Below, one piece after another: positions 13,841-19,203 of a stretch of DNA of 30,454 nt. The stretch spans positions 1 to 30,454 of IMG/VR virus record IMGVR_UViG_3300032287_002561, one strand, 5' to 3'. The stretch's first letter is position 1. Every line of letters begins with the position of its first letter. Position numbers and translations under genes: made by a program. The DNA comes from a virus. A model generated the notes under the pieces. It was not told where the DNA came from. It did no database searches and saw only the letters and a list, made by a program, of their open reading frames with translations.

Positions 13841-14635
13841 ATGAAGCGTGTTTTTTCTCTTGCTGTTATTGCCTCTGCTATTTTGGCTACTGGTTGTACC
13901 CGTATTGAAACCGGTGAGGTAGGTGTTCGTGTTGGCTTTGACAAGCAGGTGCAAACTGGTGAATTGCAACCCGGTTCTTTCAACCAAACACTGATTGGTG
14001 ATGTCCTTACTTTCCCTGTCAAGGATGTTGCAGTTGCAGTTGATAATATGACTCCTCTTGCTAAGGATAATAGTACCATGAAGGATGTGGATATGACTGT
14101 TATCTATAGCATCAACCCTAGTCAGGTTAGTGAACTCTACACCAGCAAGAATCAAAGCTTCCATGCTAAGAATAAGGAAGATACTCTATTGATGTACAAT
14201 TACATCTTCCAAGCTGCACGTAATGGTCTCTACAAGGCTGCACGTGAGTATGAAGCATTGGATATGAATGACAACCGCGCCCTGATCGAACAAAAGATTC
14301 GTGAGGCAATGCAGTCTACTCTTGCTGCTGAGAAGTTGGAGAATAGCATTACTATCCAGCAAGTTTTGGTTCGTGGTATGACTCCTGCTGATAGCGTTGT
14401 TGCTAGTGCTAACGAGTTGGTTCGTAGTAAGAATGAACTCAAGCAAAAGGAAGTCGAGGTCAAGACCGCTGAAGCAGAAAGCCGTCGTATGGCAGCACTG
14501 GCTAACAACTCCGCACAAAGTGTCCAATTCATGCAGGCACAGGCTATGCTGAACATCAGTGAAGGTATCAAGAACGGCAAGGTCCAAACTATTGTTGTGC
14601 CTAGCAATTTCACTTCACTGATGACTACTAAGTAA
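13841..14635 (+). CDS. SPFH/band-7 (prohibitin-like) lipoprotein (264 aa)
   Basis: AAAGGA precedes the ATG. The N-terminus MKRVFSLAVIASAILATGC is a lipoprotein signal with lipobox LATGC, lipid attachment predicted on Cys19. Residues about 20-170 follow the SPFH/band-7 plan (ETGEVGVRVGFDKQV, PVKDVAVAVDNMTPLAKDN, DVDMTVIYSINPSQV), and 160-235 form an Ala/Glu/Lys coiled coil (SKNELKQKEVEVKTAEAESR). Such proteins build membrane-bound oligomeric cages or scaffolds and often regulate proteases. Its place shortly before the Clp island makes a link tempting but unproven. Confidence 0.85.
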   Translation: MKRVFSLAVIASAILATGCTRIETGEVGVRVGFDKQVQTGELQPGSFNQTLIGDVLTFPVKDVAVAVDNMTPLAKDNSTMKDVDMTVIYSINPSQVSELYTSKNQSFHAKNKEDTLLMYNYIFQAARNGLYKAAREYEALDMNDNRALIEQKIREAMQSTLAAEKLENSITIQQVLVRGMTPADSVVASANELVRSKNELKQKEVEVKTAEAESRRMAALANNSAQSVQFMQAQAMLNISEGIKNGKVQTIVVPSNFTSLMTTK

Positions 14636-17091: not shown

Positions 17092-18300
17092 ATGACTCAG
17101 GAAAATAAAATCAACCAATGCTCATTTTGCGGTAATCACAAAGATATCGTAAAAAAGCTTATTGTCAGTGAAACTGTTGCAATTTGCAGTGATTGCATCG
17201 ATCTATGTACTCAGCTAATAACCGATGACTCTACGGTCGAGCCCGAGAAAAAGGCATCTGTTGTCTATGATCCTATAGAGATTAAGGCACACCTGGACAG
17301 GCATGTTATAGGTCAAGATGCTGCAAAGAAAGTATTGAGTGTTGCGATTGCAAATCACTATAAGCGTATTGATAACCCTCCCAAAGATTTAGAAATCTCT
17401 AAGGGCAATATCTTATTGATTGGTCCTACTGGAAGTGGTAAGACACTGCTAGCTAAAACAGTAGCTAAGTATTTGAATGTTCCATTCATTGTCGCTGATG
17501 CAACATCACTAACCGAAGCAGGTTACGTGGGCGATGATGTAGAAAGCATGATCAGTATGCTAGTAAATGCAGCAGGTGGCGATGCTAAACTTGCAGAACG
17601 TGGTATTGTCTTCATTGACGAAATTGATAAGATTGCACGTAAGGGTGAAAGCACTAGTATCACTAGAGATGTGTCAGGTGAGGGCGTTCAGCAAGCATTG
17701 CTTAAGTTGGTTGAAGGTACTGTATGCCGAATTCCAGCAAGTGGTGGTCGTAAGCATCCCGGTGGCGAAATGCTAGAGGTTAATACTAAGAATATTTTGT
17801 TTATTTCAGGCGGTGCTTTTGTAGGTCTAAAAGAAATTGTTAAGACTCGCATTAAGGGAACTACTATTGGGTTCGGTGCTGAGATACGTGATACTAAGGA
17901 AGAAGTGGACCTTACTAATGTTGGCCCTGATGATTTGACTAAATTTGGTATGATTCCTGAATTTATTGGCCGATTTACTACGTCAGTGACACTGAAGGAC
18001 CTTACTAAAGATCAACTGTTGCAGGTCTTAACTGATATTAAAAGCAACTACATCAGTCAATATCAATATTTGTTCTCTCTAGATGCAGTAGAACTTGAAT
18101 TTGAAAATGATGCATTGGAACAAATTGTCGATAACTGCCTTGTACTGAAGACTGGTGCCCGTGGGCTTCATACGGAAATCGAACGAGCATTGATGCCTCA
18201 CATGTTCTATATTAAGCAGTATCAAAAGAACGGTCTTAAGAAAGTACAAATTAATCGTGCTTTGGTTGTAGAACCCAAAGCACTTATTTCACCTAAATAA
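17092..18300 (+). CDS. clpX: ClpX, ATPase unfoldase of ClpXP (402 aa)
   Basis: A full-length ClpX. The N-terminal zinc-binding domain has Cys10, Cys13, Cys32 and Cys35. Walker A is GPTGSGKT (111-118), pore loop GYVGDD (144-149), Walker B VFIDEID (173-179), the second pore/RKH loop GGRKHPGGE (218-226), and sensor 2 GARGL with Arg357. The ClpP-docking IGF loop is present (259-261 in TTIGFGAEI), so it can be expected to work with ClpP. No Shine-Dalgarno sequence is seen; ATATAATAC directly precedes the ATG. It opens a cluster with Hsp20, ClpS and, further on, ClpP. Confidence 0.97.
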   Translation: MTQENKINQCSFCGNHKDIVKKLIVSETVAICSDCIDLCTQLITDDSTVEPEKKASVVYDPIEIKAHLDRHVIGQDAAKKVLSVAIANHYKRIDNPPKDLEISKGNILLIGPTGSGKTLLAKTVAKYLNVPFIVADATSLTEAGYVGDDVESMISMLVNAAGGDAKLAERGIVFIDEIDKIARKGESTSITRDVSGEGVQQALLKLVEGTVCRIPASGGRKHPGGEMLEVNTKNILFISGGAFVGLKEIVKTRIKGTTIGFGAEIRDTKEEVDLTNVGPDDLTKFGMIPEFIGRFTTSVTLKDLTKDQLLQVLTDIKSNYISQYQYLFSLDAVELEFENDALEQIVDNCLVLKTGARGLHTEIERALMPHMFYIKQYQKNGLKKVQINRALVVEPKALISPK

Positions 18301-18323
18301 TAGAATTTTTTGCGTATTTTTCG

Positions 18324-18334
18324 TATAATAAATA
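18324..18334 (+). promoter_or_regulatory. -10 / late-like promoter of hsp20
   Basis: TATAATAAATA combines a perfect sigma70 -10 hexamer (18324-18329) with an AATAAATA late-like motif (18327-18334). There is no recognisable -35 box at 16-18 bp, so an alternative sigma factor or phage late transcription is possible. The predicted leader is about 60 bases. Confidence 0.5.
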
Positions 18335-18340
18335 CGTGCT

Positions 18341-18399
18341 GTAGATGCCGATGGTCGGGTCTACATTATAGTCATCTTGCTTAATAAAGGAGAAAACAA
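18341..18399 (+). promoter_or_regulatory. candidate ROSE-like RNA thermometer in hsp20 leader
   Basis: Hairpin 1: GTAGA (18341-18345) pairs with TCTAC (18360-18364), with inner CCGA/TCGG (18348-18351 with 18355-18358). Hairpin 2: TCTT-G-CTT (18375-18382) pairs with AAGGAGA (18387-18393) with the G at 18379 bulged, so the Shine-Dalgarno AGGAG is closed. The anti-SD strand contains UUGCU, the conserved U(U/C)GCU of ROSE elements, which control small heat-shock genes in proteobacteria. The next gene is a small heat-shock protein. Heat melting of hairpin 2 is inferred, not shown. Confidence 0.7.
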
Positions 18400-18843
18400 A
18401 TGACAAACCTATCCCTACGTTCTTTAGATATCCCATCAATTCACAAATTTGCAGTCGGTTTCGACTCAGTGTTCGATGAACTTCATCGTTTGACGAACTC
18501 GCAAAATAGTGTAAACTATCCACCATACAATGTTGTGAAACATAGTGAGGATAAGTTTAGTATTGAGCTAGCAGTCGCTGGCTTCAAGGAAGGAGATATC
18601 GATATCCAAGTTGAAAAAAATCAACTAACTATCAAGGGAGAGCAATCCGTCAATCTTGACAGCCCAGTAGAATATCTACATCGTGGTATTAGTGCCCGTA
18701 ATTTCTCTCGCACATGGACTCTTGCAGACCATGTTGAGATTGCAGGTGCAACTGTTAAGGATGGTATTCTGACAATTGACTTAGAGCGTATTGTTCCTGA
18801 AGAACAAAAGCCCAAGAAGATTGCTATTACTTTCACTAAATAA
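18400..18843 (+). CDS. small heat-shock protein Hsp20, IbpA type (147 aa)
   Basis: An ATP-independent holdase that keeps unfolding proteins soluble. The alpha-crystallin domain runs from about residue 43 to 138: PPYNVVKHSEDKFSIELAVA, GFKEGDIDIQVEKNQLTIKG, then ARNFSRTWTLADHVEIAGAT and VKDGILTIDLERIVPEEQKP. The end PKKIAIT resembles the C-terminal I-x-I anchor. The RNF.R...LADHV..A...DG.L.IDLER pattern is close to bacterial IbpA. T4-type cyanophages are known to carry Hsp20 genes. The leader has a candidate RNA thermometer, and a perfect palindrome follows the gene. Confidence 0.95.
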   Translation: MTNLSLRSLDIPSIHKFAVGFDSVFDELHRLTNSQNSVNYPPYNVVKHSEDKFSIELAVAGFKEGDIDIQVEKNQLTIKGEQSVNLDSPVEYLHRGISARNFSRTWTLADHVEIAGATVKDGILTIDLERIVPEEQKPKKIAITFTK

Positions 18844-18856
18844 TATAGTGTGAAAC

Positions 18857-18878
18857 AGTGTGCAACATGTTGCACACT
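18857..18878 (+). terminator. 22-bp perfect palindrome, terminator or operator
   Basis: The palindrome starts AGTGTGCAA and ends TTGCACACT, with CATG in the centre, so the RNA can form a 9-bp stem; TCTTT follows. It lies 14 bases after hsp20 and 20 bases before clpS. The weak T tract makes attenuation or a DNA-binding site possible alternatives. Confidence 0.55.
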
Positions 18879-18897
18879 TCTTTAAAGAGATAATAAA

Positions 18898-19203
18898 ATG
18901 TCAAAAACAGAAACTAAAGTAAAGATTAAGCCTAACGTGGGATTACAAGAGCCACCGTTGTTTAGAATCATCTATATCAATGATGAAGTTACTTCGATGG
19001 AATTTGTAGTCGGGTCGTTAGTTGATTATTTTAATTATACTAATGACACCGCCATGAATATTACTAAAAATATTCATGAGACGGGAAGTGCAGTAGTAGC
19101 GATTCTTCCTTATGAAATCGCAGAGCAAAAAGGCATTGAAGTTACTTTAGACGCTAGAGCTAGAGGATTCCCGCTTCAAGTTAAAGTGGAATCAGAAGCT
19201 TAA
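18898..19203 (+). CDS. clpS: ClpS-like N-degron adaptor (101 aa)
   Basis: ClpS delivers proteins with destabilising N-terminal residues to Clp proteases. The ClpS core is evident: PPLFRIIYINDEVTSMEFVV with Asn28-Asp29 at the positions that bind the N-terminal amino group, then NITKNIHETGSAVVAILPYE with His60, and AEQKGIEVTLDARARGFPL. The length matches the family. Classical ClpS works with ClpA, yet only ClpX is seen here. The C-terminus overlaps the convergent minus-strand gene by 4 bases. Confidence 0.9.
   Translation: MSKTETKVKIKPNVGLQEPPLFRIIYINDEVTSMEFVVGSLVDYFNYTNDTAMNITKNIHETGSAVVAILPYEIAEQKGIEVTLDARARGFPLQVKVESEA

Follow-up and report, generated by a model that had tools for sequence, protein, structure and literature searches.

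By its features, the leader of the small heat-shock gene hsp20 on the virus DNA analysed here is of the ROSE type, although by cut-off it is not a member of the Rfam family RF02523. Comparison with related leaders established, as far as sequences can establish it, a conserved RNA structure that is tied to chaperone genes, in which the Shine-Dalgarno (SD) sequence can be masked by a hairpin with a bulged purine and in which the preceding hairpin 1 repeats the bulge motif. In the absence of temperature, probing or binding data, it is likely that this leader is a short two-hairpin translational switch of phage hsp20, which would sense temperature as well as unfolded protein.

The window, by which we mean the whole stretch of 30,454 nucleotides that was analysed, is a 30.5-kb virus fragment with T4-like features (rIIA/rIIB, DNA ligase). 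No close relative outside IMG/VR was found when the region was compared by megablast with plasmids and by blastn with phages. Around the leader, the gene order is clpX-like, hsp20, clpS-like, with all features on the plus strand. The upstream neighbour encodes a ClpX-like ATPase (17092 to 18300; Pfam zf-C4_ClpX and AAA_2) and the downstream neighbour a ClpS-like adaptor (18898 to 19203; Pfam ClpS, E 4.8e-22). The hsp20 gene itself (18400 to 18843; PHROG 432) encodes 147 amino acids from its start codon at 18400 and matches Pfam HSP20 (PF00011, E 5.8e-21). A promoter-like box, TATAATAAATA (18324 to 18334), which resembles a sigma70 -10 or a T4 late promoter, lies 5' of hairpin 1 and probably places the start of the hsp20 transcript near 18336; the start site is unmapped. 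A TATAAT, TATAAA, TAAATA or TATATA box was present upstream in 277 of 366 hsp20 leaders. Directly 5' of the box, a conserved ATTTTTTTGCG(A/T) stretch (18301 to 18318) is also found in the close relatives of the window. Moreover, the gap between hsp20 and clpS contains a hairpin, GTGTGCAACATGTTGCACAC (18850 to 18880), located 5' of the clpS SD and kept in relatives with differing sequence (e.g. L035, L038 and L044), and the phage carries a gene for an SPFH/Band 7 protein at 13841 to 14635.

The hsp20 leader comprises 64 nt, and the two-hairpin element spans positions 18336 to 18404. Direct reading of the sequence revealed that in hairpin 1 (18341 to 18364) positions 18341-18346 pair with 18359-18364 and 18348-18351 with 18355-18358, leaving G18347 as a bulge in the setting U-G-C opposite G-G; this hairpin is supported by compensatory changes in 55 leaders and by the ROSE_3 alignment described below. 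In the SD hairpin (18375 to 18393), for which sequence, folding and conservation speak, UCUU-G-CUU pairs with AAGGAGA. Its outer part consists of U18375-A18393, C18376-G18392, U18377-A18391 and the wobble pair U18378-G18390, followed by the bulged G18379, the inner pairs C18380-G18389, U18381-A18388 and U18382-A18387 and the loop AAUA. The ROSE motif UUGCU (18377-18381) faces positions 18388-18391, and the SD sequence AGGAG (18388 to 18392) is masked. Both G18347 and G18379 are bulged in the identical U-G-C/G-G setting, and hairpin 1 thus repeats the bulge motif of the SD hairpin. Moreover, GUCA (18371 to 18374) is complementary to UGAC (18401-18404), a pairing that appears in the minimum-energy fold including the coding region and that could mask the hsp20 start codon; GUCAU..AUGAC or AGUC..GACU is retained in close relatives. 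The preliminary description of this DNA had proposed the outer hairpin, the second hairpin with the hidden AGGAG and the bulged G18379, a UUGCU motif of the U(U/C)GCU type on the anti-SD strand and an Hsp20 gene downstream, and each of these elements was found exactly where it had been placed. Of the features of the ROSE-like class, the motif opposite the SD, the bulged G with the wobble pair, two hairpins (two to four are usual for the class) and a small heat-shock gene downstream are all present, and a rise of translation with temperature is inferred.

A covariance search with the Rfam ROSE families, which had been put forward as a check, supported this assignment in part. The ROSE_3 model (RF02523) aligns over its entire length at 18339-18405 with 25.2 bits (E 0.0022, 4227 families), but the gathering score of 43 bits was not reached, and a search of the window at gathering thresholds gave no match. 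Likewise, 18 close relatives remained under the ROSE_3 cut-off, as did the leader of the Methylophilales phage Melnitz-3 with 34.1 bits. Like the ROSE_3 element of Pseudomonas ibpA, the window element has two hairpins in a leader of about 60 nt, U(U/C)GCU opposite the SD, a bulged G and a small heat-shock gene (PMC3669281), and the core of hairpin 1, GAUGCCGA..UCGGGUC, is nearly identical in both, including the bulged G. However, unlike the Pseudomonas element, the window element is phage-borne, AT-rich and under the Rfam cut-off, it has a weaker SD hairpin, and the phage elements possibly pair the start codon, also precede phage dnaK and groES and include a lineage with a bulged A and possibly one with a bulged U. 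ROSE-like motifs have also been added by later work at ABC transporter genes (PMC12857270). The ROSE-like and ROSE-G elements of the transporter genes share U(U/C)GCU or CUGCU and the bulged G at the SD with the window, but they belong to bacterial transporter genes, and in ROSE-G the SD strand contains another bulged G (PMC11342760, PMC12857270). Among phages, the RNA thermometers of lambda cIII, of SPbeta blyA (fourU) and of Caudoviricetes sigma70 (fourU) have been named (PMC11182007, PMC10586365); these are phage RNAs too, but they are neither of the ROSE type nor located on chaperone genes. The statement that no phage-borne ROSE element is known to have been described agrees with the open-access literature, in which none was found, although reports may exist elsewhere.

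The conservation of the leader was assessed with relatives of hsp20, of which an IMG/VR protein search returned 80. In distinct hsp20 leaders that had been fetched by protein similarity alone and contain a recognisable SD, U(U/C)GCU occurs within 18 nt 5' of the SD in 59 out of 59 cases, in comparison with only two of 178 other SD-preceded gene leaders, both of which belong to phage dnaK. It had been argued that the coincidence of motif, bulge, masked SD and Hsp20 is hard to explain by chance, and this numerical contrast bears the argument out. In hairpin 1, compensatory changes were detected at nine of ten pairs (55 leaders). Over the whole structure, 93.3% of the cells are paired, compared with 44-53% if the partners are slid, and none of 500 shuffles matched the covariation. 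The compensatory changes anticipated for hairpin 2 exist at the one pair next to the SD core that is free to vary (U-A in 196, A-U in 16 and C-G in 14 of 372 leaders; 61% paired versus 50 ± 1% after shuffling), but the core of the SD helix is nearly invariant. RNAalifold alone recovered only hairpin 1 and not the SD hairpin, since the core of the latter hardly varies and is misaligned in places.

Scans for DNA patterns in which AGGAG and ATGAC come after CTTGCTT or CTCGCTT led to hsp20 in 70/80 and 72/80 of the loci read, respectively. Moreover, the motif precedes hsp20 in all nine cultured, credible phage records that were read, which include S-PM2, P-SSM4, S-CAM1, HTVC008M, HTVC115P, Mosig and Melnitz-3. 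A covariance model built from close relatives gave 101 matches in 1.04 Mb, essentially all at chaperone genes, among them the hsp20 leaders of S-PM2, P-SSM4, HTVC008M, Mosig and Melnitz as well as dnaK and groES leaders. The element is present in cyanophages, pelagiphages and the Melnitz phage, and hundreds of phage contigs conserve the motif and the bulged G together with the masked SD and an Hsp20 gene downstream. An hsp20 leader of this kind also exists in bacterial relatives, including the SAR11 strain HIMB114 and Burkholderiaceae, and the module is therefore common to phages and bacteria. The same two-hairpin leader was observed at hsp20 of SAR11, other alphaproteobacteria and betaproteobacteria (L581, L582, L601, L605, L559 and L588); with Rfam 15, 15 such bacterial loci yielded one match at E up to 1, which is below the cut-off. 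The ROSE matches in "Campylobacter phage A11a" (MG065691.1, L209) and "Pseudomonas phage Y7" (OQ572409.1, L205) were not counted. Both are unverified records with ibpA loci of the bacterial type (ROSE_2 with 100 bits and ROSE_3 with 69 bits) and are probably bacterial ibpA contamination.

In some phages, dnaK and groES are preceded by the same ROSE-type leader. The dnaK leaders (L071:2978-3041, L077:2976-3043, L143:5585-5657 and L333-L412) carry U(U/C)GCU in 43 of 63 distinct cases; nearly all others have UUACU, in which the bulged G is replaced by A, so that about one third are of the A-bulge form. In the A-bulge dnaK leaders, the bulged G of hairpin 1 is likewise replaced by A. The groES-like leaders (L156:10718-10782, L456:3101-3127, L506:285-310 and L509 on the minus strand) occur in G- and A-bulge forms that match hsp20 on the same contig where both are present. 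All 22 contigs that were queried from the list of A-type dnaK leaders encode Hsp20, and the hsp20 leader is of the A-type in 21 of them; only L418 differs, and this belongs to L396, which has an unscored dnaK leader. In the scored leaders, the bulges of hairpin 1 and the SD hairpin agree as G/G and A/A in 301 and 50 hsp20 leaders, 43 and 33 dnaK leaders and 3 and 4 groES leaders, respectively. Inspection of the odd rows by eye left one clear mixed leader, L470, with G in hairpin 1 and A in the SD hairpin. Most other apparent mismatches between the hairpins were motif-finding artefacts (CTTGCTTACT), and a few leaders lack a recognisable hairpin 1. The base bulged in the SD hairpin agrees in 70/70 loci carrying at least two of the genes hsp20, dnaK and groES, and the hairpin stems differ between the chaperone-gene leaders of one contig. 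Many A-type leaders (among them L364, L372 and L404) have a third short hairpin (GGGCAUAGUGCCC-like), which separates hairpin 1 from the SD hairpin.

In the alignment of the Hsp20 proteins, there is one column that varies in step with the bulge base of the leader. It contains Ala60 in the window, Thr57 in L364 and Ser in L470. In an alignment with the IbpA sequence, Ala60 corresponds to Ala54 of IbpA, and Tyr40 and Arg100, the equivalents of Y34 and R93, are kept in the window protein. Among 403 phage Hsp20 proteins, the combination was Ala with G in 336, Thr with A in 62, Ser with G in four and Ser with the mixed leader in one. A set collected by protein similarity only, about one third of which was already in the earlier set, gave Ala with G in 54 and Thr with A in 30 cases, the Ser case again and one Thr with G that reads as A-type. 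L694 was counted as A-type after re-reading. An A-type leader combined with Ala (L530) lacks hairpin 1 and was taken as a false leader. Among close relatives, the residue-60 column alone separates the bulge types perfectly, whereas the next best column reaches 0.917. The third codon positions vary freely, and the constraint therefore acts on the protein, which rules out an RNA motif within the coding region as the source of the correlation. A YPPYN-like motif and GI..R.F are present in 338 and 318 of 357 phage Hsp20 proteins, respectively, and an AlphaFold2 model of Hsp20 (mean pLDDT 76.5) resembles the solved small heat-shock protein of Synechococcus phage S-ShM2 (7ck4). A scan for pyrimidine bulges uncovered a small phage lineage of six loci (L745, L746, L749, L757, L763 and L779) with U in the SD hairpin, Pro at the tracked residue and, according to folding, a bulged U in hairpin 1 as well. 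The pairing of U with Pro is only suggestive, because this lineage has a single origin and carries other residues in place of Y34 and R93, with Lys as the equivalent of Arg93.

The matched changes could also reflect shared descent, if bulge and residue changed a single time in one lineage and the leaders were then distributed through duplication or gene conversion. We regard this as unlikely, though it has to be taken seriously. In a tree built without the residue-60 column, bulge and residue change two to three times, on the same branches, and a single A-type clade was not rejected (AU test, p 0.17); the number of independent switch events is therefore small. Moreover, hsp20 and dnaK are often neighbours, and joint transfer could shift several sites together. 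However, one change suffices in 0% of the bootstrap trees, and G-type phages that have both Ala and G are nested inside the A-type clade. A single event also fits poorly with the intermediate residue Ser next to the sole clear mixed leader, with Pro at the same residue of the U-bulge lineage and with the divergence of the stems within one contig.

Rather unlikely is a purely cis-acting thermometer, in which temperature alone opens the SD hairpin without any protein and hairpin 1 merely stabilises the mRNA. This explanation matches the short ROSE element of Pseudomonas ibpA, in which hairpin II melts, hairpin I does not and hairpin II alone confers control by temperature (PMC3669281). Folding across temperatures, another check that had been suggested, gave mixed results. 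With the leader only (18336-18402), the unpaired fraction of the SD rose slowly from 0.10 at 20 °C to 0.20 at 42 °C and 0.29 at 50 °C, and with identical settings a Pseudomonas-type ROSE element gave 0.04, 0.14 and 0.21. With the coding start included, the SD was unpaired to about 0.4-0.5 without a clear temperature trend and a competing fold appeared; almost no response to temperature was predicted in this case. However, standard folding energies ignore the non-canonical pairs of ROSE elements, and folding therefore neither proves nor excludes thermosensing. Global SD accessibility was left out as an argument because it separates hsp20 only weakly from other genes (0.42 versus 0.50 at 37 °C). 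Temperature sensing by the window leader is inferred. What the cis-acting explanation leaves unaccounted for is that the bulge of hairpin 1 follows that of the SD hairpin, that the leaders of hsp20, dnaK and groES agree within a contig, and that a residue of Hsp20 follows the bulge base. Thermosensing is probably not the whole story, and the covariation with Hsp20 suggests that a protein reads the leader too.

Conversely, repression might be due to protein only, with Hsp20, or else some other protein of phage or host, binding the two bulged hairpins and temperature acting solely via unfolded protein. The modest predicted melting, the correlation between bulge base and residue and the IbpA precedent (PMC10474464) would suit this idea, which we consider improbable; against it stands that U(U/C)GCU together with a bulged G masking the SD is the tested thermosensor of bacterial ROSE elements (PMC3669281). 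Finally, the idea that a T-rich stretch resembles an anti-SD by chance, to which only the short and weak SD helix would lend colour, is refuted by the motif conservation and the shuffling results given above.

A switch responding to both signals remains the preferred reading, and the analogy with IbpA suggests how it may work. It has been shown that E. coli IbpA binds the 5' UTR with the ROSE element of its own mRNA and represses its translation, for which R93 and an aromatic residue at position 34 (Y34) are needed (PMC10474464). Like IbpA, the phage protein has equivalents of these residues and is encoded by an mRNA with a ROSE-type leader; unlike for IbpA, binding of the leader by the phage Hsp20 lacks data, and a pairing of the bulge base with residue 60 (IbpA A54) was not found described. 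Since these residues are kept and base and residue match, autoregulation by Hsp20 is the simplest reading, in which binding and repression are inferred; the comparison suggests that, like E. coli IbpA, Hsp20 may read its own leader. At low temperature, the SD and possibly the start codon would be held shut, and warming would loosen the bulged SD hairpin and allow ribosome entry. Free Hsp20 may bind both bulged hairpins and repress its own translation, as judged from the base-residue correlation, and the same repression could act on dnaK and groES where the element is present. If infection or heat caused Hsp20 to be sequestered by unfolded protein, repression would be lifted. With thermal opening and release of Hsp20 by unfolded protein combined, the switch would sense both. 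An evenly balanced proposal, which could turn out either way, is that ROSE elements are binding sites of the small heat-shock protein they control, that one alpha-crystallin residue reads both bulges (Ala with G, Thr with A, perhaps Pro with U, and Ser being permissive) and that this pair serves many phages to control hsp20, dnaK and groES as a small regulon.

In the literature found, phage RNA thermometers amount to a handful of cases, none of the ROSE type. The ROSE-type leader described here occurs widely, in cyanophages and pelagiphages as well as in uncultured phages of fresh and marine waters; some of these also carry it in front of dnaK and groES. That bulge and residue change together provides a direct handle on how IbpA-type proteins recognise thermometer leaders, and it bears on whether ROSE elements respond to temperature, to unfolded protein or to both signals.
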